A program made the position numbers and the translations under genes. A DNA stretch of 64,000 bases from assembly GCF_000003815.2 (NCBI RefSeq), contig NC_049989.1, positions 6,768,734 to 6,832,733 on the forward strand, in the 5' to 3' direction. This document shows positions 16,649 to 62,338 of the stretch, piece by piece. The stretch comes from Branchiostoma floridae. Taxonomy: Eukaryota > Chordata > Leptocardii > Amphioxiformes > Branchiostomatidae. Each line of letters opens with the position of its first letter. Position 1 is the first letter of the stretch. Below the pieces are notes generated by a model. It ran no database searches and was not told where the DNA came from. It saw only the letters and a list, made by a program, of their open reading frames with translations.

Positions 16649-16801
16649 CAAGCATGAGGTGGGGAAGGAGATGCAGGTCTAACACTCAGACACCCATCGC
16701 TGTATGACTTCTCCGATCTTTACATGACCAAAGCTTCTGTGTACTAACAAGAGGTTGTGACAACCATTTATTGGATGCATTTATGAGGACAGAACTCTAA
16801 G

Positions 16802-18634
16802 ATGGCGAGCACAAGGCGCGTACGTATGTTTATTACATTATTTCTTGTAGCATGGAGTGGAACAGGATACACAACCATGTCCTTTAGGCTGCAATGCTGT
16901 GACAGCTTCCCGATTGGACCAACTTTATGGTGTTTAAAAGCTTGCAGTTTCCATCACATCCCCACGATGCCGTCAACCCTTGCTGACTTATTGATACAGC
17001 ATCAAAATATCACGAACATCAGGGTGGGAGATTTTCACGACCTTAAGTCTTTAACAAGGCTGCGCATATGGGACAGTCACGTTGTGAATCTACAACCAGG
17101 TTGCTTCCAAAGCTTGCCGCGTTTGAAAGAACTAGATCTCCGTCGGAACAGTATCGTGCGACTGAAGGCAGAAACTTTCAAGGGACTGGAACAGCTTGGA
17201 ACTCTGAACTTGGACCATAATGAGATATATCATATTGACAATGCAGTTTTTCCTGGGCTCAAGAAACTTAAGTCTTTGTCTATCAAGGATAATTGCCTTT
17301 ATATTATTCCACAAGGTATAGAGTCTATAGCTATCAGATCAGTCTACTTAACTAAAAATCCCATATCATCCGTGGGAAATGTTGGAGCATTGAGTCACCT
17401 CTCAAGGTTGGATTTGGTTTACAACAAGATTCGGTGTGACTGCGGTCTAAGAGAAATCAAGACGTGGATCCTTGAAAATGAGAAGATGCTGTGGACAATT
17501 CCGTGCATGGATGGCGAAACTGGAACCTTCAAGCTAATTGAAGATGTTCCTTGGGATGATCTGATGTGTGCCTCACCTGACGTGTCTATCATCGCAGACA
17601 ATAGAACGGTTACAGGTAACGTATCCCTCACCTGCCAGACAGACTGTCAGGATGGTTTCAAACGGAAGTTCTCGTGGATCTCATCGAACGGAAACCAGAG
17701 ATCACCAAGTTACGAGTTCTCCAAAAACTACACCCACGTCAGCAAACTGTCGTGTAAAGGGTCAAACATCACAAGAATGGAAAAGAAGAGAATGTGCTAC
17801 TCTGTGTTGAACATCCTTCCGATGAGCAGCGGTACCGAAGGCACGTACACTTGCAAAGTGACGGCTAACCATACCCAGAACGCTAGTGCATCTGCAGTGT
17901 ATCAGGACATAACGGAAGGACAAGATAACATAGCTCAACCTGACAATATTACGACAAAACCAAGTTGGGAGAAGTACCAGAAAGTACAACCCCTCAGNNN
18001 NNNNNNNNNNNNNNNNNNNNNNNNNNNNNNNNNNNNNNNNNNNNNNNNNNNNNNNNNNNNNNNNNNNNNNNNNNNNNNNNNNNNNNNNNNNNNNNNNACC
18101 AGAAATGTAGTAGATGGAGGCTCAGGAAATGATGCCCAAAGTTCGGGGACGGGTGGTGCAACAGTCAGCCACTATGAGAACGACAACCAGGTTTCAGACA
18201 CGGTCTCAGACGAAGAAAGAGCCAGTGATGGACACTACGAGAATGACGACCAGCTCTCAGGCGGAATAGGAGTCAGGGATGGACACTACGAGAATGATGA
18301 CCAGATCTCAGACAAAGGAGGAGCCAAGGGTGGACACTTTGAAAATGACGAGACTGACCCACATCACTACGAGGATGATGACGAGGAACGCTATGAAAAG
18401 GATGATCACCTTTCTGCCAGTGATGTGGACAAGAACTCACAAGGGACGATCCCATCTAATGTCACCGGTGTGAGGCCAAGGAAAACATGCTCGAACGTCA
18501 ATCAGACCAAAAACGCCATACGTCATAAAACAAGAGCTCTATCCAGCCACTCTAAAGCCAAACTTACCCCGAGCATGGTGGCATTCCACATCAAAGCACA
18601 ATCACATGGACACTATGACAATGAAAGGATCTGA
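16802..18634 (+). CDS. LRR and Ig-domain transmembrane receptor with repeated Tyr-x-Asn tail motifs
   Basis: Predicted type I surface receptor. Residues 1 to about 24 are a signal peptide (RMFITLFLVAW core). A cysteine-containing LRR N-cap is followed by five or six leucine-rich repeats (about 60-205), for example 'LKELDLRRNSIVRL' and 'LGTLNLDHNEIYHI'. Then come an LRR C-cap (IRCDCGLREIKTW) and one Ig domain (about 258-368) with the VSLTC, FSWISS and GTYTC pattern. The extracellular part carries several N-glycosylation sequons. A 100-N assembly gap at 17998-18097 falls where the transmembrane segment is expected. The acidic tail then repeats HYENDDQ-like units. The start is the first ATG, directly before the signal peptide. 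The frame ends at TGA 18632-18634, but related coding sequence continues in another frame to 19043. Single-exon LRR-Ig genes are common in amphioxus. The ligand is unknown. Confidence 0.85.
   Translation: MASTRRVRMFITLFLVAWSGTGYTTMSFRLQCCDSFPIGPTLWCLKACSFHHIPTMPSTLADLLIQHQNITNIRVGDFHDLKSLTRLRIWDSHVVNLQPGCFQSLPRLKELDLRRNSIVRLKAETFKGLEQLGTLNLDHNEIYHIDNAVFPGLKKLKSLSIKDNCLYIIPQGIESIAIRSVYLTKNPISSVGNVGALSHLSRLDLVYNKIRCDCGLREIKTWILENEKMLWTIPCMDGETGTFKLIEDVPWDDLMCASPDVSIIADNRTVTGNVSLTCQTDCQDGFKRKFSWISSNGNQRSPSYEFSKNYTHVSKLSCKGSNITRMEKKRMCYSVLNILPMSSGTEGTYTCKVTANHTQNASASAVYQDITEGQDNIAQPDNITTKPSWEKYQKVQPLXXXXXXXXXXXXXXXXXXXXXXXXXXXXXXXXXXTRNVVDGGSGNDAQSSGTGGATVSHYENDNQVSDTVSDEERASDGHYENDDQLSGGIGVRDGHYENDDQISDKGGAKGGHFENDETDPHHYEDDDEERYEKDDHLSASDVDKNSQGTIPSNVTGVRPRKTCSNVNQTKNAIRHKTRALSSHSKAKLTPSMVAFHIKAQSHGHYDNERI
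17998..18097. other. Assembly gap (100 N)
   Basis: Exactly 100 N, the usual placeholder for a gap of unknown length. It lies inside the LRR-Ig gene between the Ig domain and the cytoplasmic tail, so the transmembrane helix is hidden. The real distance and reading phase across it are unknown. Confidence 0.99.
18164..18420 (+). repeat. Coding tandem repeat, units of about 51 bp encoding HYENDDQ
   Basis: 'GGACACTACGAGAATGA' recurs at about 51-bp spacing (18231, 18282) with diverged units before (18168) and after (18333, 18364, 18391). Translated units run SHYENDNQ, GHYENDDQ, GHYENDDQ, GHFENDE, HHYEDDD and RYEKDD, each followed by an acidic or serine-rich spacer. Related HYDN units occur at 18610 and, in the shifted frame, at 18713. 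Confidence 0.85.
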
Positions 18635-22542: not shown

Positions 22543-24238
22543 CCCCTCATTATTCCATCGCCAGCTGACATTTCCAACCAGGTCCGTTTCATCCATCATC
22601 CTCGGCGGGATGATTAAAATTGATTTGCTGTAATTATGCCTTGGCGCTAGAATTTCTTCTGAAGGCTTGACCTGTCGATACTTCGATTGGATATCCACAC
22701 TGCGCCCGGGATTGTTTTATACCAGACTCAGGTCATTTGTACACGTAGAAGGGCAAAAAGTTCTCAGTCGATCGCGAGCACATTCCGTCATAGAGTAATG
22801 CGGACGAAAGTTTTTGTTCCAAGTTTTTTTTTTCGGCAGTGCATCATACAAGTTCAAACGTTTGAAGAAATTCTAAATAAATGTGTAATAAGTCTACTTG
22901 CAATCATATAATTAACAGGATAAACACATCGAATAAAAACTAAGACTGGCTACTGGTAACAGATTCTGAATGTCTAAGTTTATCATTTGTTCGGTTTGAA
23001 TAGAATTTTTTTTTGGGGGGGGGGCATGCAGTACTAACTACGTTTTCTTTCATACGCGGATTTCTCAAAATAATAAATTGAGGATTTTCTGATGCTGTCC
23101 TTTAAGTTCGACACGAATCGGGCTACCTCCTTGAATAATGTCCGTTTTGGGATGAATATCTTCGCTAATTCGGCTTGGTGTCTTTCACTATTTTTTAAAT
23201 CCGCAAAGTCAGTGCTTCCGGCACAGGTGTGTTTAGTACTTACTCTAGGCATCCTGTAGTCCTCCAAGTCTGTACTCGATTACTCGGATATGGACAATAT
23301 GACACTAGATATCTACAACATAGCTCTCAGAGACTCACACTTTCCTCCTACACTTCGGTCTACGCCTCTGCATTTTACCTTACTGAACCTTCAAGAGCTA
23401 TGGATGTGTCCGGTGGGTACCTTAAGAAAGACACACATGACTATTACTAACGGAACTAAATATAACTACTGTAGCTCTAACCGCGGCGATGTCGCAGTCA
23501 GTCCAGAAAGTCTAAGCCGGGGATACACCGGTCCTGGGGCGGAGATTATCGCTTTGCGTTGCGCATGGGAACAAGATTCGTTCTTAGCATACCCACCGGA
23601 GGGTCTAAATGGGTCGTAGATATTTGAAAAAAAGTTTAGCGCATATTTCTGCAAACTGTGGCCGAGATGACTATATACGAGTTTAAACTTCGACATGAGG
23701 GAATGGTCATTTAAAAATTATCTATGACCACCGTCAAGATTGGAAACTGGGGTGGAAAATCACCGGCTTGCATGGTGTGCATTTGAAGCAATAAAATAGA
23801 AAAAATAGTGATAACTTATCTATAAAAGAGATCAGGTTTTAATAGCTCGGTATTTCATACGCTAGAAATGCACAAAGACGAAAATGCGTAAATGGAACGT
23901 TTTATAGGAAACACAACTTTCTCTTTATCGTTGTCCTCTGAAATATAATAGGTGTGTCGAACTCAGATTCGCCCTTGAGAAAGTCATTTACACAGCACGA
24001 CTGAACAACCCGACCGCCTGGGGAGCCGTCACGTGATCGATAGGGATGATTTGCACGCCAAGCTAATGATTGAGTCCGGCCCCCCTAACGACCATTAAGT
24101 AAGCACTACTGTAATGGTCAAACAGCAAAAAATATACAAGCAAGCTTATCGCTGGACCATTTCTAAAGTAGGCGTGAGTAGTAAGAAAAATGTTAGGCTG
24201 TACATTCCATCTATAGCCGAAACTTTTTGTCTATACTC

Positions 24239-24408
24239 AGAAAGAGAGAGACAGAGAGCGAGCGAGAGAGAGCGAGCGAGAGAGAGAGAGAGAGTGAGAG
24301 AGAGAGAGAGCGAGAGAGCGAGAGAGAGAGAGTGAGAGAGAGAGAGAGTGAGAGAGAGCGAGAGAGAGTGAGAGAGAGAGAGAGAGCGAGAGAGAGAGCG
24401 AGAGAGAG

Positions 24409-24449
<41 letters not shown>

Positions 24450-24474
24450 ATGAGAGAGAGACAGTACAGTGGCA
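24239..24474. repeat. GA-rich polypurine tract
   Basis: About 236 bp of almost pure purine on the plus strand, mostly GAGAGA with AGCGAG and GTGAGA interruptions. The long frames on both strands across it are low-complexity artefacts. Such mirror-symmetric polypurine tracts can form triplex DNA. Confidence 0.95.
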
Positions 24475-25127
24475 GTAGAGCATGAGAGACGTCGACGGAG
24501 AGAGAGATTGAGAAAACAGAGAGGGGAGAATGTTCGAGGTAGGGCAGAGATGGAGAAATGGGCGGAAGGGAGGGAAGGAGATGGAGAAAGAGGGGGTATG
24601 GAAATAATATTTTTTTTGTACTATAAACATTTATATACACAGATATAATGCAAACGATCTACGCCGTTGTTGCGAAAACTATGTCAAAGATAGGACTGAC
24701 ACTAACTTGCATCATTTGCGCCGAGCATATCAGAACTTGTATCTGATCGTGAAATAAGATACGTGCCTGTGTGAATCTAAAACATAATAACTACTGCATT
24801 ATCTATAAGCGCACTATTATGTACTGAAGAAGATAACTAATCTGTACGAAACAATGGAGGGTTGTGGTCAATGCATCATGTATAAAGGTTATGTCTAATT
24901 CGCATCAAGATCAGTCTTATGATTTTGAAATAAATTTATGTCAACCCGTGTCGCGTATTATGCCCCAGTTGTGTTAGATAGGTAATCTTTATTGACACGA
25001 CAAAAGTACAGCGACTTTCGTAAGGTCTACATGTATAACAACTACTTACAGTACAACTAAACACATATATATGGATATCTATAGGTATGGATACATCAAC
25101 ATAAAGGGTTTAGCATCAACATAAAGG

Positions 25128-43800: not shown

Positions 43801-46800
43801 ACTACACAGTGGTGGCAGTAGATAAGAAGGTAGAAGCTGCATGTATTAGCAAGCGATAAAATGTAATTAGACAGTGTGTACTCGTGTAGGGCTTGAATCT
43901 TGAAGCCTACAGTATATGGCTATGTGTGATAGTATACAATATCTGATTTGTGAGCTACATACAGCTTGGTGTAGCAGTGTGTATTCTTTATGTCTTGTAT
44001 CACCCTTCCCTTCTAGGACCCTGATGGGAAGTCCCTGGAGGTCCTGCTTCTGGAGAAGAACCGAAGCCTGCAGTCGGAGAACACGACTCTGAAGATGTCC
44101 AACAGTCAGCTCACAGGTACAGCTCCAGGCTTTAACACATCATGCCTCACAGCACAGCACAGTAGCTCTAACTTTCCCTCGGCTGCATAATCCAAAATAT
44201 TGCATACCTAAAGGTTACTTCAGTGGGCAGAAGGTTAAAGAAAAGAATATCATTTGGGTTTCGTAGGTGAAGAATTACATTGCACTACACATACACAAGT
44301 GGCTTCATTGCACTGCATAGACAGACACATTTTTATACACGCATGAAGGGATTCCACTGGCAAGTTCTTCCGCTACAGATTGAGTGAACATATGTGATAT
44401 CATGCATTGCAGGTGAATGTCTATAAAAACTTTTTTAGACGAAGGGTACTTATCCTGGATCTAATATAATTACTCTTACAAAGTGTTTTGTATAAGACAA
44501 AGCCATCATTGTTCCGAGTGGAATTTTCTCATTTTGAGATAGTCAATTATAAGAAATAAATCATTTTAATGAGAAGGTACTAAGGCCCTCATGCAATATT
44601 TCAACAGACTTATTTCTATCTGATTACAAGGGTAGAACAAAAATAGTGACCTGGCCATGCAGTTTTCTATGGCTTAGTGGTGTCAAATTGTTAACACCGC
44701 AGGTTTTCCCAATAAATGTGCGTAGTAGTCATTTCTAAGCAACTTGTCTCTCGTCAAATATGCTCTGCTTATAATTTTGATTGCGTCAATGATAATTGTA
44801 CATTGTACATTTCAACAGTACATTGCAAGATGAGTGTATTTCTTATCTTTAGAGATTCACTTCAATGTAAAAGTCACATCCGGTGCCTACTAAGAAATTA
44901 CCTTTAGTTGTAAAGCCTACGGGCAAGATTTCTTGATAAATGCATTGTCCCATGGAAGATCTCTAATACTAATCGAAATCGAGATAACTCTGATTTAATA
45001 CCATAGCATTGTCTGTGGTGATCTAAATACAATGAACTTGGCTTGGGTGTTTCACCTCTGGGCCAGCTGGCTTTGTTCCAGTTGGCTCCCATTGGCAAGG
45101 TAGAAATAACTTGTGAGGTCAGATGATTGTTTGGTACTGAAGAAGGGTAGCCTGGGATCTGCAAGAAAGGTTTTGCCGTCCAAAGTCTTGAAATGTGAAA
45201 TTTTATCGTATCGACCGCTTGCTACCTGTGCCTCTCCTGGAGAATATTGTCTCTGTCTTTCCATCTTTTGTTCTCAAACTTTGTCTTAAATTTCTCGTTT
45301 CTATGTAAGGCTGTACAGCCTATCTACTACAGCTGTGAGAGCTGTCCTCAGAGATTTGTGGTGTGAAGATAGACCACTCTCTACATGTACGTATCTGTAA
45401 ATCTCTACCTTTGAAAAACTTTTGCAGTTTCCGAGGCTCACCTTTTATCTTCAAAGTTTGAACTCCTTTCTGTGGGAGAGGCTCAGAACCGGCAGGCGGA
45501 AGAACAACCTTATAACCCTGTAGCAAGACCATCACACAAGGAAGGAAAGTGTTCCTTTAAGATGATTTTGATCCTAAGAAGTTTAGTTTTCAACTTTCTC
45601 TCAGTGCTGCCACATTTAAAACTGCGGCCTGAGTTGAGAGGAAGTTGGGATTCCAGATTCATCAGTTTTTTTACTAAAAAATGGGAAAATATTGTCCTTT
45701 CAAGAGTGGTCTTGTTGCAGGCTTTGAATTGAAATATTCCACCTTCTCTTTCCAGAAAAAGTGCCCTACTTGATAAAATATGTACAAAAATCCCTAGATG
45801 TAACTTTAAAAAAGTATCGAAAGATTACAAAGATAGCTTTTTCTGGAAAGATGGAAGGTGGTAGATGATCCAAACGTGCCATCAGTTTTGAGTTTGGTCA
45901 GTTGTCCCTGAGAACGGCTGTGTGATACCTTTCTTGCAGGGTCCTCAGGGCGAAGCTTGGAACCCGCGGGGATGGTGGGCCTCTCTGCCCTGGACCAACA
46001 AAATGTGCTTGCATTCACCACAATGCTTGGTGAGGAAATAGCTGCTTCCTTCCAGAACGGATCAGTCAATCACGATAAAAATTCTCAGGACGGGAAAGTG
46101 GCAAGCAACGGCAACTCAAGCCGTGTGGTTGTTTTGCCAGCAAACGTACCACTGGTCGGAGCTAACGTGACGACAGCGACGGCCTCTACTGGAGCAGATG
46201 AACTTGACACTTGGTGAGTCGTTGTTGTTGAGTGTCGTATCTGTGCTACTTGATAATTGCCATCATTATATAGCTTTCATAATTCAAAAGGTGTAACTTC
46301 TAAAGAATGAATAGTAAGCTGCATGTAGTGCCAACTTCTGCATGAGATGCCTTAGGCTTGTTTACAGCCCCATACATGTCAATGTGGATCTTTTGTCTTG
46401 TGAACTTGAAAACTTAGGTATTGTTTTATGTTGAAGACTTTCTCTGTCTCCAACTTTAAATCATAATTCATGAAGAAATTTCTCAATTTTCTTTGTAAGA
46501 AACAACTGCACAAGGAGGCTTCATCTGTTTATTTTGTAATGTCTGTATATTTTTGTTTGACTTAATGGAAAATGGATTTTAAAAAAATACATGAAGAGAG
46601 CAAAGAAAATGCATATCATTGCATTTTAGACCAGACTGCATTCGTTCTCATCAGAACAACCCACTTAACTATTTCTTTGAATTGTTTAAATGCTTACAGG
46701 GAGATAGCCAGGCAAGTAAAGGACCTTTTACTCCACAACAACATTGGCCAGAAGGTGTTTGGCCAGCATGTCCTGGGCATGAGCCAGGGATCGGTCAGTG

Positions 46801-49800
46801 AGATCCTGTCCAAACCTAAGCACTGGTCCAGACTGACCTCCAAGGGAAGGGAACCCTTCATCAAAATGTACTCATGGCTTCAGGACAAAGAAAATATCGC
46901 CAAACTCAAGGCAGCAGAGGGCAGGGACAGAGGTGTGTATGGTAAGACCTTAGTTATGCTTATACAAAAGTATCTTTTGAGACTGGCCATTATTTGCAGG
47001 GTAATATTTGTATTGGCTATATGTATGATAATTATGAACAATGTATTACAGCCCAAGGCATTTTCATATGATAAGTCTGAGCTTAAAAAAAAATTATGTT
47101 TAAGGACATAATACAGTATCCAAAGAAAAAGCATGTACAGCAACTGATTTACACATGATCACATCTGAACATACAGAATGCAAAATATTAATACAAATGC
47201 AAAATGCTTTCCAGACAGTATGAATACATGTAGTGTTCCTGTGTTTCATGTCAGAAACCATGCATCTAAATCCACTGGTGTAAAAGCAGTTGACATGTGT
47301 CTTACAGACCCTGTGCGGCCTAACCCATCTGAATCTGATGCCGCCATCGCCATGATTCTGGAGCGAGCGCGGCAGGAGATGGCAGCACAACAAGCTCGAG
47401 CAAGAATACCCCCTCCTCTTCCTACGTCCCCCCTGACAAGAATAAGTCCCGTCCCTTCCTCCCCCCTCACAACATCCATCGCTCCGCACATGTCTCCCCT
47501 CATCCCAAGCTCTCCTACCTTAGCACAGTCTACAGACCTCCAGTTTCCTCGACCCCCACCACTATCAGTGGCTTCCATGAAGGACAATTTACATGTGACA
47601 CCTTCTCACACAGTCGTGGCGTCAACTTCAGTTGTGTCGACGGCACCCACAGCCACAAAATCTACACTGAACAGTGCCGAACCCATCATTCCAGTTTCCT
47701 CGGCACGGCAAATCACATCGATGTCCGCGTTATCATCACGCTTAATGTCAATCGCAACCACTCGACCATTATCACCAGAACCAGTGCCTAGCTACACTAC
47801 CATTGCAAACTTTGCCGGTATGTCACACCCTTCCCTCCCCACCATCTCTCCACTCAACAAGCCGCCACGAACCGTGCCTCCCCCTCTCACCTCAGACCAG
47901 TACCAGAAGTTTAACGACATAGACACCATGGACCTGACCAGAAAAATCAAAGACACCCTGGCAAGGCTTGCCATTGGACAGAAGGTGTTCGGGGAAAAGG
48001 TGTTAGGACTCTCACAGGGAAGTGTCAGTGACATGTTAGCGCATCCCAAACCGTGGTCCAAGTTGACACAGAAGGGAAAAGAGCCGTTCATCAGAATGCA
48101 GCTGTGGTTGGAAGAAGTGGAGCATACTGGAGGGGATGCCATGGGCATGACGTCGATAAGGAACAATACCCCAAGATTGACAGGTAAATATGGAGTCTTT
48201 GTGCAAGAAGTGAGAAAGTTTTTGCTTCAAGCCTTTAGTATCAGCTCTGAATTTTAATTTGTATGCCTTACCTTGACAGAAGTGCTCACTGAGCTCATAA
48301 GAAGCAAGTACATTTGTATGTTTCTATTCAGAGTCAAGGAAGCATGATACCACAGAAATTCTATCCATTGATACAGTAGAGAACTGTAGAATTGGCTCTG
48401 TATGGGTCAGTCATGATTTTTAACACTTATTTGCCAGAGAACTTTCTACCATGATTTATATTAAGCTTAAACAGTTTTGTTTCTAGAAAAGTGCCATGAT
48501 ATTAGATCCAAGAACATACTAGTGAGTCTGGTGAATACCACAGAAACTCAGTACAATGTGTGGTCAGGTTTCTCACAAAAGTTACACTCTATACATGTAT
48601 TAATATTGTTTTCTTCTGTCTTGTTCCTCTTACACCTACACAGAGCCCAGACCACCAGAGATGGTTGTGCCATCCTCGCCAACCACGTGTAGCAGTAGAA
48701 TTACCAGCAGTACCAGTCCACCTGCCACTGTCGCCACTCCAAAACACGTGCCACCAGTCAACAAAAGGGTCCCTGAATCTAAACCAATGACAATTCAAGA
48801 ACTTGTTGCCCTCTCCCCTGACCTAGACACATATGCCATCACAAAGAGAGTGAAAGAAGTTTTGATGGAGAACAACATAGGACAGAGGCTGTTTGGGGAG
48901 ACAATCCTGGGCCTGACACAGGGGTCTGTAAGCGATCTACTGTCCAGGCCTAAGCCATGGCACAAGCTCAGCTTAAAGGGCAGAGAACCCTTTGTACGCA
49001 TGCACCTGTGGCTGAGTAACCCAGAAGCCATTGCACAAGTCAAGGCCATAAAGGAAGAAGCCAAAGGTATGGGCCATATCATACAATGTGTATCAGCGAC
49101 ACTTTCAAATTTCATACAAAGGACAAATAGAGGTGCATGAAGAAGAAAACTGAAACAACATTTCTGAAAAAATATTTCAAACCATTTTCTATACGTGTAC
49201 TGCACACCATGCATTTGCGTCATTCTTTGATAAGTAGTAGAAAGGGAAAGAAGCTGAGCATGTGAACCTACATTAACTTATACCTACCTGCCTACCTAGT
49301 CCCTTGACCTCCAGGTCGTTGGGGGGACAAGGTAGACATTAACTTATGCCTACATGAAAAATACATGTCAAGTAAAAGACATGACTTGAATCAAAAGTTA
49401 AATGCTATTGCTTGTACTACTATTGATGGATGGATGTTAGGATAAACCCACACCTTGTTTGTCTGTATTCACAGCACATCGCCGTCGTCATTCCACCTCC
49501 AGTCTTTCTGACAGCAACTCTTACGACGGCCCTCATCACAAGAAGCAGCGGGTTGTTCTCTCCCCTGAAGAAAAGGAGGCCCTGAGAAAGGCATATGAAC
49601 AGGAACCTTACCCCTCACCCAGCACCATCGAGTACCTGGCAGCCAAACTCAACCTTCGGCCGTGCACCGTGACCAACTGGTTCCACAACTACCGTTCGCG
49701 TCTGCGGCGAGGCTCATTCAACGAGAGCCACCACCACCAGGAGCAGCAACACCAGCAGCAGCTGCAGGCGGCCATCAGTGAACTACATCAACAACAGCTT

Positions 49801-50382
49801 CAAATGCTGACCATCAACCTTCCAGCGACCCCTAACGACCTCCCCACCATGGTCGTCATCAACCAAGACGGTGCCCTCAACCTCAGCAGTAGGGATAACG
49901 CTTCCAGTCTGTCAGAAACGGTAGTCGTAGCAACTGCAGGAAACGGTCCGAATCAGGAGCAGTCCGGAAAGCCTGAGGCCAGGGAGTGGGACAGTCGCAG
50001 TAGAGACAATGGTCTGGGACTGACCCGAAGGCACGGTTCAGAAAACTCTGAGACTGTCGTGTGCAAGACAGAAGTAGACAATTGGAGCGACACAGACGAG
50101 ATGGAGGTGGAGGATGGCAACTCCCACAGCAGCCAGGAAATGATTATGCCAACTCCAAAACAGGTAGTGGCTGTAGGAAGGATGGAGAACCCCTCCCCGG
50201 GCAGCCCTGCTGATCTGACCCCGCTAGTGGCTATTAACCAGGATGGTGTGCTGAACCTGAGCAGCAGAGATGATGCTGACGACAGCTCACAGGGCAGCCA
50301 GGACGGCAGGAAGATAACAGCAGTCAAGAGGTTGGAGAACAGCATTAAGGAGGAGGAGGGGTTGGACCAGTGGGAATTCTAG
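25788..50382 (+). CDS. Cux: Cut-class homeobox transcription factor Cux (three cut repeats plus homeodomain isoform)
   Basis: Nuclear transcription factor of the CUX1/CUX2 family. Exons: 25788-25853, 36251-36361, 37549-37596, 38898-38976, 39489-39626, 40139-40262, 40755-40831, 40986-41052, 41458-41677, 42589-42770, 43202-43253, 44017-44116 (shared coiled coil), then 45940-46213, 46700-46941, 47308-48183, 48644-49066 and 49475-50382. All join in phase, giving 1328 residues. Cut repeat 1 is at about 513-590 ([14 protein letters not shown]), repeat 2 at about 799-875, repeat 3 at about 945-1020, and the homeodomain at about 1046-1105 ending in [12 protein letters not shown]. Repeats 1 and 2 are separated by a long Ser/Thr/Pro-rich linker, the region proteolysed in vertebrate CUX1. 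An alternative donor at 46933 would shorten the repeat-1 exon by 9 bases. The first exon encodes [19 protein letters not shown], clearly the CUX/CASP N-terminus. The C-terminus holds a duplicated INQDGxLNLSSRD segment. Confidence 0.92.
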
Positions 50383-57916: not shown

Positions 57917-59508
57917 TCATCAGTATCATGTCTAACCTTTAGGTTTGTACATGGAGAACAGGTGATGTGGAAACTCTCCAATGGCATTGAGTCTTGCCTG
58001 TGAGAGCCTTAAAGTCGAAAGGTATTCTTATACAAATGTAGTGTTGGATGATAAGAAGTGATCTCAAACCATGGACACTATATGGTTGCCAAAATATCGA
58101 TGGCAAATGTGTCTTTCCTCCACGTTATGAGTGTCCGTGCACCCTTTCCTTAGCAATTGTTGAAGGCTCTACACGTGAACATATTGTAGATCTCTGTTTT
58201 ATGTTAAACTTTTTTCTTTTCTTGTCTGCTTTAATAGCTGAAAACTATTTTTGAATAGAACCAGTGCAATGTATAAACATCCATTTTGAATAAAAAGTTG
58301 GAATATTAACACTTAATATGTGGTATACATTACATGTAGTTCTAAATATTGTTCATGGTTTTAGTTAAATGCCACAAAGAATCTGAACCCTGGGAACCAG
58401 GCGAAGCTGAAACTATCATTGTAAACGCTCAAAAATATAGGCCGCAGTATCTCGTATCTGAGTAACACTGTAACAGATTATTCCATACAATATACATGGT
58501 TAAGTTCAATGATATTTACTGACAGATGTCTTCCTTTTCCCTAGTATTCTTGCAGCTTGTTGCACTGCACAAGCAGAAGTTGCCATCTTCTGCCACTACC
58601 TAAGTATCTTATAAAAGCTGTAGTGTGCAGAGCTAATACTGTGTTGTAATGTAGTATTTTGGGTTCCTGTCAACATCACTTAGTCTTATTTATTGTTACA
58701 GGTAAAACAGGACTTGTCATAGGGTGTTGGGAATATATTTGTTGCTTTTACCAAAGCTGGCATAATGCCATTTAACATACAATAAATGTAAGTAGCTGGT
58801 GCCAACAGACTGTACAGTGTGAGACAAAAGGTAGATTACACAATTCAACATTTCATGTATACATCCATGCACTAGATATATATGTAGCAAATTTCATAGC
58901 AATAAATTGTGTAAAAATGCTTATAGCATGTCAGCTGTTTTGTTTTGTGAATTCTAGCTAGTACTTAAGATAAGGCTTGTATTCGTTTTCAAGTCAACAA
59001 GATGACATTACTGTGGGCATGCATGTCAAAAGCATACTACAGTATACAATATGTACTATTATGGCTAACAGTATTCATAAATTATTGTAGACAATATTTT
59101 GGAGTGTAAAGTTACCATGCCTATTTTCACACAGTGCTACATGTATGCACTATTCCATAAAACCTTAATTTAAAATCTTGCTCTGAATATATAGCCATTT
59201 ACGTGTGCAACAAGCAAAGAATCCATAAATGCATAATGCATTAATTATACAAACTAATTAAATGGTAAAACTATTGTTTATTTCTTAATTAAGGCATTTT
59301 ACCTTCACTTCTATCCATGATTCAAGAGCATTGAACATTCATTTAAGGAAATAATAATTGCAACATCAGTCTTTTTAGTGTTACATTAATGAATTTTAGA
59401 AACATGATTATCAGAAGCAAACAGACATGGTTATTACACTTATATCCTAGTCCAAACCGTGGACCTATTCTATTCTATAGATATCATGTTTAAGTTGGAC
59501 TTGACCTT
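57917..59508. other. 3' region between the convergent CASP and DED-CARD-SPRY genes
   Basis: CASP 3' UTR. AATAAA at 58289-58294 is the nearest canonical polyadenylation signal, 373 bp after the stop; another is near 58782. The remainder is AT-rich with no gene or strong repeat seen. Confidence 0.5.
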
Positions 59509-59514
59509 TTTATT
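59509..59514 (-). terminator. Possible polyadenylation signal of the minus-strand gene
   Basis: TTTATT on the plus strand is AATAAA on the minus strand, 23 bp after the stop codon at 59537. That is unusually close; another copy at 59277-59282 would give a 3' UTR of about 270 bp. Confidence 0.35.
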
Positions 59515-59536: not shown

Positions 59537-62338
59537 CTACAGAAACATAGGAACTTCGGATACCGACACCAATGACAATTCTCCATCCCAGACAGAGAAG
59601 GCAGGGTACAGCGGTTGTGAGAAGTGTGCAAGGAATGTGTGCAAAATCCTCCGCCTCTCTACATCACAAAATGACAGCCTCCCTCCACCAAAGTCCAGGA
59701 GAACCCCCACCCTCTCTGGTGATGGTCTATTCATGGGAAAACTTTTCCCATTATGTCTTCCGGAGCATTCCATAAGGCTGTGCACTAGGCACCAGGATGC
59801 ATTACTGTCCCCCAGACAAAGATGGCGGGGCACGTTCTTGTATGCTACACCAATCCTGTATGTCAAACTACTCCTAACATTGACTTCCCAGTAGTACACA
59901 CTGCTTGATACTGACACATCCCCTAGTACAGTAGGGTTAGGGAGGAATCTTGTGTCCACAAATTGGTCCCGACCACAGGCGGTTTCTGTCCTCTCGTTCT
60001 TGATTGTCTCTCTGTAAACAGCGTTGTTGTCGTGGGACAATCGGACATCGCGGTGAGCTGTGTTGGGGTTGAACTTGAAGACAAGGATAGATGTTGTGTT
60101 ATTGCTGTTGGCATCCTGTAGACTGAAGTCAGCATGAGGGTAGGCTGGGCCTTCTGAGTCTGTCATCACAAGGGGCTGGGGTCTTCTGAAAACAGTGCCA
60201 AAAATAAAGGATTTTCCTCCTTAATGTCTAATGGGACCAGACTTCCTGGAAATCCATACAAAATGATATTTAGAAAGTATTTACACTAACTGGATGGTGA
60301 TGAGTTAGAGTATGTGGATATTGCCAATACTTCAATTTTTACAATGGATATACTGAATTGAATGTTGACGAGCTGGTATTCAAGCCACAAATCAAATCAG
60401 CATAGCTTCTAGTAGAATTTAATTGAAGCTTCAGTTTCTAAACCCTGACCTGGTGTTGTGTCTATGGTAACCAACAATGGCTACCTGTCAAGTCCCTGTG
60501 CTGAGTTCTCAGCCTGTTCCAGTGCATCAGCCAGGTAGTTCTGCTGGGATCCAGTCCTCAGTGCCGTGCAGAGCTCACGGAAGGCCTGGTCTCCTCTGGT
60601 GGGGAGAACCTGCAGTAAGGCTTCGTTCATGGCCTGACGTGAGCCTCCTGTGTTTCTGTGCATAAATTAGGCATTTTAATGATTATGAATATGCTATATA
60701 ACAAGTAACAATATATTTTCGTCAATCAATGATAATGCTACATCATTTACATGATTGTTTTCAAATTAAGGTTAAGAAAATGTCACTGAATTATATAACA
60801 AATGCAGAATAACCATTAAAAAAGCCCATAGCAGAAAACAGGAGAGTGTAGGATTTAACTTTTTGAACTGGAAAAGAGTGGAACGTTGAATAAATGTACC
60901 TGAACTGAATGATGCTTTCCATTTTACAGAGAAAGAAAGAGGGATGTTAGGAAAACAGAACATTGTGAGGGACAGTATCACCAAGGAGGTTAAAGAAAGA
61001 CATTTTTAAACCTCCTTGGTACCGCTATTTCAAATTCTAACTTAAATACATGTACACTGTACTAACTACAATAATTACATGTATATAGGTTAAAGGGGTC
61101 ATTCTCAAGACTAGGCTTATCCATCTCACATGATCTCTGCCTCCAGTCTGTCCGTGAGAATGCCTGTAGCCAGGAGGTAGGGTAGGACGTGGCGAGTGTG
61201 CATGTCCGACACTAACGTGGCGCGGTGGTCACGTAAGATGGAGCGATGCAACTCCGACATGCTACCGACTACAGCAGCAGTGCCACCTGTAGGAGAAAAT
61301 AAAACATTCTTAAAAAGATACCCTCACATAATGTTAGTACTAGTAATTTGTTCTGTGCATTCTGTAAGGTTTCCAGCAACAGTGCCACACAAATCATGAG
61401 CACATAACACTTCAATCAACACAACATTACCCATATTATTAGAAGTTTTACACTAAAACTTTTAGATGCAGGTCAAAATGAATTTGCACTGCAACACAAA
61501 TTTATCAGCTCCTAATATCAGCTAAGCTGCCTGGGTTTGCCATGTATTACAAGGTTTCTTAATAAACAACAATAAACAACAACAACATTGTCTGCAATTT
61601 CAATGAACATATAAAGCGTCATTTACCACCTGAGATAATGGCTTGCTGTAAAGTATATACCTCCTCTGCGTGGCGCCATGCCTGCAGCCTGATGTTCCCC
61701 GTTAGAGGGCGCTTGCCTCCGGTCCACGGTCTCTTCCCTAAACTTCTCAAGTAGATACACCAGATCCTCACGGTTACACTCCTGAAGGAGGTCCTCCAGT
61801 GCTGTCAGGTCCCCGTCAAGGATCACCCTTCTGTATGAAACAACCACAACAAAACTCGTACATGTATAACGTTAGCCTATAACCAGATCAAAAGCCCCTT
61901 TCGGAGAACCAAACAAGTCGAGGCATGTCACGCTACAAAATAATTTTTGAGTCTAGTCTCTCTTCGCTTTCAGTTCCCCAAATGGAGAACGAAGATTCTT
62001 TAGAAAATGAAATGTTAGCCATGTTATGTTTGAAGTCATTCTTTTCTTTTAGATAGTTACGATACGCTTTATTTGAAACAACCAGCAACTTAAAAGGCTT
62101 GTTTTTCACTTTCACCCTCACCGTCTTGCCCTCACCAAAATTATCTTCTGAGTTTGTTTTACCTGGACAAGAGTTCTGCAAACATGGCCTTGCCGTCCGA
62201 GATGCCGCTCAGGATGGCTTTAGGGATCTTGTCCTCACACAGGAACTTTAGAGTGGTCATATCTCTGTCCGTGAGATTATCGGCGATCTTGTTGAGAAGT
62301 TTTCTGAACGGAGAGACGCGGAAGCCTGCCGCCGCCAT
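59537..62338 (-). CDS. DED-CARD-PRY/SPRY (B30.2) protein, putative death-fold adaptor or sensor
   Basis: Five exons in transcription order: 62338-62163, 61830-61661, 61286-61130, 60655-60485 and 60185-59537. All have GT/AG ends and consistent phases (2, 1, 2, 2), giving 440 residues. Residues about 8-92 form a death effector domain: FRKLLNKIADNLTD, LKFLC, then the RxDL signature in CNREDLVYLLEKF. Residues about 126-208 form a CARD: LHRSILRDHRATLV, VLPYLLATGILTDRLEAEI, then ALLQVLPTRGDQAFRELCTAL. Residues about 245-438 are PRY/SPRY: PNTAHRDVRLS, YYWEVNV, RIGVAY, RVGVLLDFGGGRLSF, LYPAFSVWDG. The start ATG sits in ACAATGGCGGCG. The DED suggests binding to FADD/caspase-8-like partners and the CARD to CARD partners; the B30.2 domain suggests ligand or partner recognition. 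I know no vertebrate protein with this order. There is no transmembrane segment or enzyme domain. Exon junctions are unverified. Confidence 0.8.
60980..61020. repeat. 12-bp perfect inverted repeat in intron 3 of the minus-strand gene
   Basis: ACCAAGGAGGTT (60980-60991), a 17-base loop, AACCTCCTTGGT (61009-61020). The arm resembles the palindrome at 12635-12663 (CCAAGGAGCTT), suggesting members of one small inverted-repeat family. Confidence 0.8.

Follow-up and report, generated by a model that had tools for sequence, protein, structure and literature searches.

The window, meaning here the whole 64-kb stretch of amphioxus DNA that was analysed (G000:C11:6768734-6832733, in a genome searched over 513,431,437 bases and 431 contigs), carries on its minus strand a gene of five exons spanning window positions 62338-59537, which join in phase to give 440 codons plus a stop. 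Exon 1 (62163-62338) supplies the start codon and the first part of a DED, with D26 and F32 (residues 1-58), exon 2 (61661-61830) the end of that domain with R79-E80-D81-L82 and then a linker (residues 59-115), exons 3 (61130-61286; residues 116-167) and 4 (60485-60655; residues 168-224) the first and second halves of a CARD, and exon 5 (59537-60185) a linker and a MID1-type PRY-SPRY (B30.2), with the stop codon at 59537-59539. The ATG, in the context CAAACAATGG, is the first of its open frame and lies downstream of an in-frame stop. All four introns (332, 374, 474, and 299 bp) are of the GT-AG type, with phases 2, 1, 2, and 2, and GC content is 0.59 at third codon positions vs. 0.32-0.37 in the introns. 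A polyadenylation-like AATAAA is found on the same strand at 59509-59514, about 20 bp beyond the stop; further AATAAA motifs occur in intron 1 (62073) and at 59282, and ATTAAA in introns 3 and 4 (60423 in the latter). The five in-phase minus-strand exons and 440 residues proposed in an earlier sequence-only reading proved right in their coordinates, with GT-AG introns and no internal stop. A gene that is intact but unexpressed, or one in decay, we consider very improbable, as the 440-codon frame runs without stop or frameshift and splice sites are canonical, a polyadenylation-like signal is present, and the signature residues are intact. Judged by its sequence, the DED-CARD-B30.2 gene is real and intact.

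Other features were observed in the window. Convergent with this gene is a plus-strand gene of the CUX1 type at 46566-50379, whose three CUT domains (3.5e-25, 4.5e-26, and 2.2e-28) and homeodomain (4.1e-16) are distributed over separate ORFs. A 615-aa ORF at 16787-18634 (plus strand) contains LRRs (3.5e-24), a weak Ig match under the cut-off (0.004-0.005) and an internal run of N codons. A simple repeat at 24146-24658, probably not a gene, reads on its minus strand as open frames of Leu and Ser. No Rfam families or tRNAs were found in the 64-kb window.

The translated exons were compared with Pfam, and both death-fold domains scored significantly and above the curated cut-offs, as the earlier reading had anticipated: the DED at residues 11-92 (1.8e-18, 67 bits; cut-off 35.9), containing the RxDL signature claimed for it as R79-E80-D81-L82, and the CARD at residues 131-215 (5.6e-11, 42.7 bits; cut-off 23.9). 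The PRY/SPRY had been called complete. The SPRY (residues 322-424) exceeded its cut-off (5e-16, 59.3 bits; cut-off 26.3), whereas the PRY (residues 263-287) remained under it (0.0017, 18.4 bits; cut-off 27.5). Among PDB sequences, however, residues 260-437 matched best the PRY-SPRY of MID1 (1.8e-30) over positions 6-178 of a 188-residue chain, and as this match covers nearly the whole chain, both halves of the B30.2 are present. The next B30.2 matches were MID2 (2.9e-22) and TRIM14 (1.9e-15), and pyrin B30.2 chains also matched (e.g., 9r6y, 6.6e-10).

Introns interrupt both the DED and the CARD, and the halves matched complementary parts of amphioxus profiles in the same order. The DED and CARD profiles (11 and 7 rows, respectively) exclude the gene itself, but resemblance to this gene guided both the choice of their members and the alignment. 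In a scan of ORFs of at least 20 aa from the window and from loci L001-L039, profile positions 1-49 of the DED fell on exon 1 (5e-10) and 53-82 on exon 2 (1.8e-5), and positions 1-43 of the CARD fell on exon 3 (9e-14) and 45-90 on exon 4 (5e-15); exon 1 was also matched, again over positions 1-49, by the DED search of the animal's own genome (3e-9). The SPRY profile covered exon 5 with positions 1-172, a profile that itself includes exon 5 (through locus L009). The spliced 440-aa protein reached 68.4 bits for the DED and 111.7 bits for the CARD, and outside the five exons no window ORF matched any of the three profiles at E values up to 5.

With respect to domain class, the DED alone was closest among PDB sequences to caspase-8 (1.3e-11) and then to FADD (5e-8), while the CARD alone was weakly closest to RAIDD (9e-4), APAF1 (1.7e-3), and caspase-9 (6e-3). 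The DED keeps D26, F32 (the Phe of LKFL), R79, D81, and L82, sites serving assembly in FADD and caspase-8, so that with its Pfam score and E/D-RxDL motif it is of the canonical FADD/caspase-8 type; the Pfam score likewise places the CARD in its family. An N-terminal death fold followed by a CARD is the order of ASC (PYCARD), a protein of two death folds only, to which the B30.2 at residues 260-437 is here added. The C-terminal PRY-SPRY is that of TRIM proteins and pyrin; no RING, B-box, or NACHT was matched in Pfam with the 440-aa protein at E values up to 1, so the B-box that, with a RING or a coiled coil, precedes the B30.2 in that class is not seen, nor is the NACHT of NLRs. Identities as an E3 ligase and as an NLR were rejected for want of a RING and a NACHT match, respectively. 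Catalytic, Death, caspase, FN3, and LRR domains were also sought in the 440-aa model with Pfam, without any match.

Two adjacent genes, a DED-CARD adaptor made of exons 1-4 and a separate B30.2 gene made of exon 5, could produce the same arrangement of domains. Reading through the end of exon 4 meets a TAG at once, the ATTAAA at 60423 follows in intron 4, and a protein with the B30.2 alone might begin at M232 of exon 5. Such a division we nevertheless judge unlikely: the acceptor of exon 5 is canonical and its phase matches, intron 4 is just 299 bp long, an AATAAA lies directly after exon 5, and a DED and a B30.2 can also be joined in frame at a second locus, L019 (see below). The TAG straight after exon 4 and the ATTAAA do make a short DED-CARD isoform conceivable. 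The single-gene architecture put forward in the sequence-only reading is well supported by the splice model, Pfam, the MID1 match, the profile halves and the predicted DED-B30.2 relative at L019.

This second locus lies on the same contig at about 6.613-6.616 Mb, some 215 kb away, and has a DED exon along with SPRY exons of the MID1 type. Its DED gave the best other match of the 440-aa protein in its own genome (C11:6616151-6616411, 6.7e-9, the next being 8.3e-6), and SPRY matches (6613560-6612828, 40 and 47% identity) were found on the same strand 3 kb downstream. The DED exon closes with the donor GTGAGA and the SPRY exon starts after TTTGACAG, both in phase 1, so that three exons (L019 8483-4771, minus strand) are joinable in frame into a predicted DED-B30.2 product of 335 aa, for which Pfam placed the DED (1.5e-16) and the SPRY (1.3e-17) above the cut-off and the PRY (5.6e-6) just under it. 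No CARD was detected in the 2.5-kb intron between DED and SPRY by tblastn or by the CARD profile. The exon structure also differs, L019 having its DED in one exon, its SPRY in two and SPRY entry in phase 1 instead of 2, which speaks against a simple duplication; given these differences and the undetected CARD, an independent fusion is possible.

Trees were built from fetched loci only (29 DEDs, each with at least 15 bits and 55 profile positions, and 16 SPRYs, the SPRY locus L062 being left out because too little of the profile was covered). In both trees L019 was the nearest row by path to the DED-CARD-B30.2 gene, although no starred branch joined the two in either. The SPRY of L019 showed the highest identity among the 15 other SPRYs of the set (43% over 175 columns), whereas the DED with the highest identity was that of L047 (42% over 69 columns), and the DED of L019 has Thr at position F32. 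By E value, three SPRYs stood above the split SPRY exons of L019 (3.4e-18 and 4e-12), namely those of L021 (C11:6528977, 8.6e-29), L020 (C11:6619439, 2.4e-27), and a locus on C1 (9286142, i.e., 9.286 Mb; 6e-27), because these lie in one exon. All these factors taken together, common descent of L019 and the DED-CARD-B30.2 gene is likely, though not proven. A DED-B30.2 gene would then be common to both loci, the CARD having been gained in one or lost in the other.

The loci L020 (2219-1409) and L021 (6317-4893), both on the minus strand of C11, are MID1-like B30.2 loci with a split PRY/SPRY; no DED, CARD, or scored B-box was found near them in the fetched DNA, some flanking stretches of which are masked. 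Two weak and partial CARD-like matches, one by tblastn at E 2.9 in L020 and the other by profile at E 4.6 in L022, were put down to chance; both loci are partly masked. The scored B-box matches (the best 150 of 570 candidates) include two on C11, whose positions of 3.4 and 23.0 Mb are distant from the DED-CARD-B30.2 gene and from the SPRY loci of this contig.

The pairing of these domains was then considered over the whole genome. In the DED, CARD, Death, and B-box searches at most the 150 best matches were scored for each and domains split between exons were missed, so the counts that follow are lower bounds. Among scored matches, a DED preceded a SPRY on the same strand by no more than 10 kb at two places only, the DED-CARD-B30.2 gene and L019, as compared with 0.04 pairs expected under even placement; the reverse order was found once, where the SPRY of L020 lies ahead of the DED of L019. 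This comparison set 83 of the 150 scored DEDs (that of the DED-CARD-B30.2 gene included) against 30 SPRYs, leaving out 67 DEDs at C17:18.28-18.90 Mb, a contig whose only scored SPRY is at 16.05 Mb and whose scored CARDs are at 8.3 and 10.9 Mb. None of the 149 scored CARDs, a list from which the split CARD of the DED-CARD-B30.2 gene is absent, had a scored SPRY of its own strand at a distance of up to 25 kb.

The 67 DEDs at 18.28-18.90 Mb of C17 form a cluster with Death matches interspersed, which may correspond to the published DED-TRADD-N-WD40 expansion or to DED-Death genes. Membership of the DED-CARD-B30.2 gene in this large group was rejected, the gene falling outside that starred clade. 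A separate observation concerns L033 (2-1300, plus strand; C5, about 21.15 Mb), where ankyrin-like repeats and a coiled-coil-like stretch, both recognised by eye, precede a C-terminal CARD; this CARD is among the nearer relatives of that of the DED-CARD-B30.2 gene (41%, 1.1e-11).

At five other loci among scored matches, a DED and a CARD share a strand and lie no more than 3 kb apart, three with the DED first (C11 at 14.5 Mb and two on C15 at 21.2 Mb) and two with the CARD first (C19 at 9.9 Mb and C5 at 12.4 Mb, the latter with a Death match between the two domains). The C15 loci, L041 and L042 (about 21.23-21.24 Mb), are neighbours in which a DED exon is followed in phase 1, by sequence reading, by a CARD exon that runs to the stop (exons of L041 checked by Pfam), and they look like plain ASC-like DED-CARD loci. 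The DEDs of all five loci, along with two more, fell into a starred clade (99/96) without the DED-CARD-B30.2 gene. RxDL was present in 20 of the 29 DEDs examined, that of the DED-CARD-B30.2 gene included, and in none of the seven of that clade. The gene therefore seems unlike the ASC-like loci, lying outside their DED clade and keeping RxDL, and this suggests two lancelet DED-CARD designs, one ASC-like without RxDL and the other bearing RxDL and a B30.2.

According to the accessible text of PMC3196919, an N-terminal DED replaces the PYD in two ASC homologues of amphioxus, bbtASC-S and bbtASC-L. Of the amphioxus caspase prodomains assayed there by co-immunoprecipitation in HeLa cells, that of caspase-1/2 bound the ASC DED, unlike those of caspase-8 and caspase3-like. 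The DED in the PYD position, together with an extra length of bbtASC-L that this text leaves unexplained, would allow the DED-CARD-B30.2 gene to be bbtASC-L itself with an unremarked B30.2 tail. This identity seems quite improbable to us, since L041 and L042 look more like plain ASC, their likeness to bbtASC being our own deduction, and their DEDs, without RxDL, belong to the clade that excludes the gene.

Overall, the domain classes favour, at about an even chance, a 440-residue sensor-adaptor scaffold with a FADD/caspase-8-type DED, an apoptotic-type CARD, a MID1-type B30.2, and two outputs. Caspase-8-like and CARD outputs, as the earlier reading had imagined, are a reasonable inference from the nearest PDB sequences, which are caspase-8 and FADD for the DED and, with weak scores, RAIDD, APAF1, and caspase-9 for the CARD. 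The B30.2 would bind a ligand or self target, and clustering would bring the death-fold domains together; the DED could then nucleate filaments with the DEDs of FADD or of caspase-8-type proteins, and the CARD could recruit apoptotic CARD partners. A single recognition event would in this way have two outputs, in a protein that would be cytosolic, with a role in cell death or immunity. With adaptor modules and a B30.2 predicted in one chain, sensing may be linked directly to cell death. The fuller proposition, that a single B30.2 recognition event seeds both FADD/caspase-8-type DED and CARD assemblies and that the gene belongs to a small one-chromosome lancelet family of DED-B30.2 genes, is put forward tentatively, as possible and not probable.

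The main rival reading is a decoy or brake, of the kind that cFLIP can be for caspase-8. The DED-CARD-B30.2 protein, from whose model a catalytic domain is absent according to Pfam, might be such a decoy or brake, capping DED and CARD assemblies where and when its B30.2 directs. This anatomy fits a brake as well as a sensor-adaptor and sequence cannot separate them; both DED signature sites are kept, which suits a building block, although anatomy alone does not discriminate, and we consider the brake rather unlikely. If the sensor-adaptor reading is true, one chain would fuse a sensor and a dual adaptor, roles that in vertebrates are divided among pyrin or an NLR, ASC, FADD, and RAIDD, and would provide a direct natural link from B30.2 recognition to DED-type and CARD-type caspase activation. 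How B30.2-guided inflammasomes such as pyrin arose could then be examined experimentally, using recombinant domains from a basal chordate.

The earlier reading knew of no described DED-CARD-B30.2 protein, and none was found in the accessible open-licence PMC literature, although one may be listed in a catalogue. Some of this logic is nevertheless already published, in the ASC with DED for PYD and in SPRY combined with death folds. In the accessible portions of the respective papers, amphioxus NLRs with a DED and hybrid genes verified by cDNA are described (PMC2575513), as are combinations of SPRY-like domains with Death, Pyrin, or CARD and a Branchiostoma expansion of DED-TRADD-N-WD40 (PMC8195603), an inflammasome-like complex formed via DED interaction is proposed (PMC10155998), and fish NLRPs carry a C-terminal B30.2 (PMC11508797); the available part of PMC11788884 contains no DED or CARD.

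Among known systems, pyrin/TRIM20 (MEFV) shares with the DED-CARD-B30.2 protein a death-fold N terminus and a B30.2 C terminus but has a PYD instead of the DED and no CARD, and the B30.2 described here is nearer to MID1 (1.8e-30). Pyrin/TRIM20 also carries a B-box and a coiled coil. MID1 and MID2, class I TRIM proteins, are the two best B30.2 matches, whereas no RING, B-box, or FN3 was matched in the present gene. The FADD/caspase-8 prodomain has the DED class, RxDL and the Phe of LKFL in common with it, without the Death or caspase domain being found here. bbtASC-S and bbtASC-L, from the same animal group, likewise have a DED in the PYD place, although a B30.2 is not mentioned for them in the accessible text of PMC3196919, and the DEDs of the DED/CARD pairs in this genome differ from the present one in having no RxDL. 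With fish NLRPs (PMC11508797, as far as its accessible text goes) the combination of a death fold and a B30.2 in one chain is common, but NACHT and LRR are not matched here. Finally, the Branchiostoma DED-TRADD-N-WD40 proteins, as they appear in the accessible part of PMC8195603, similarly couple a DED to a β-rich putative sensor, with WD40 where the present protein has a B30.2 and TRADD-N where it has a CARD.
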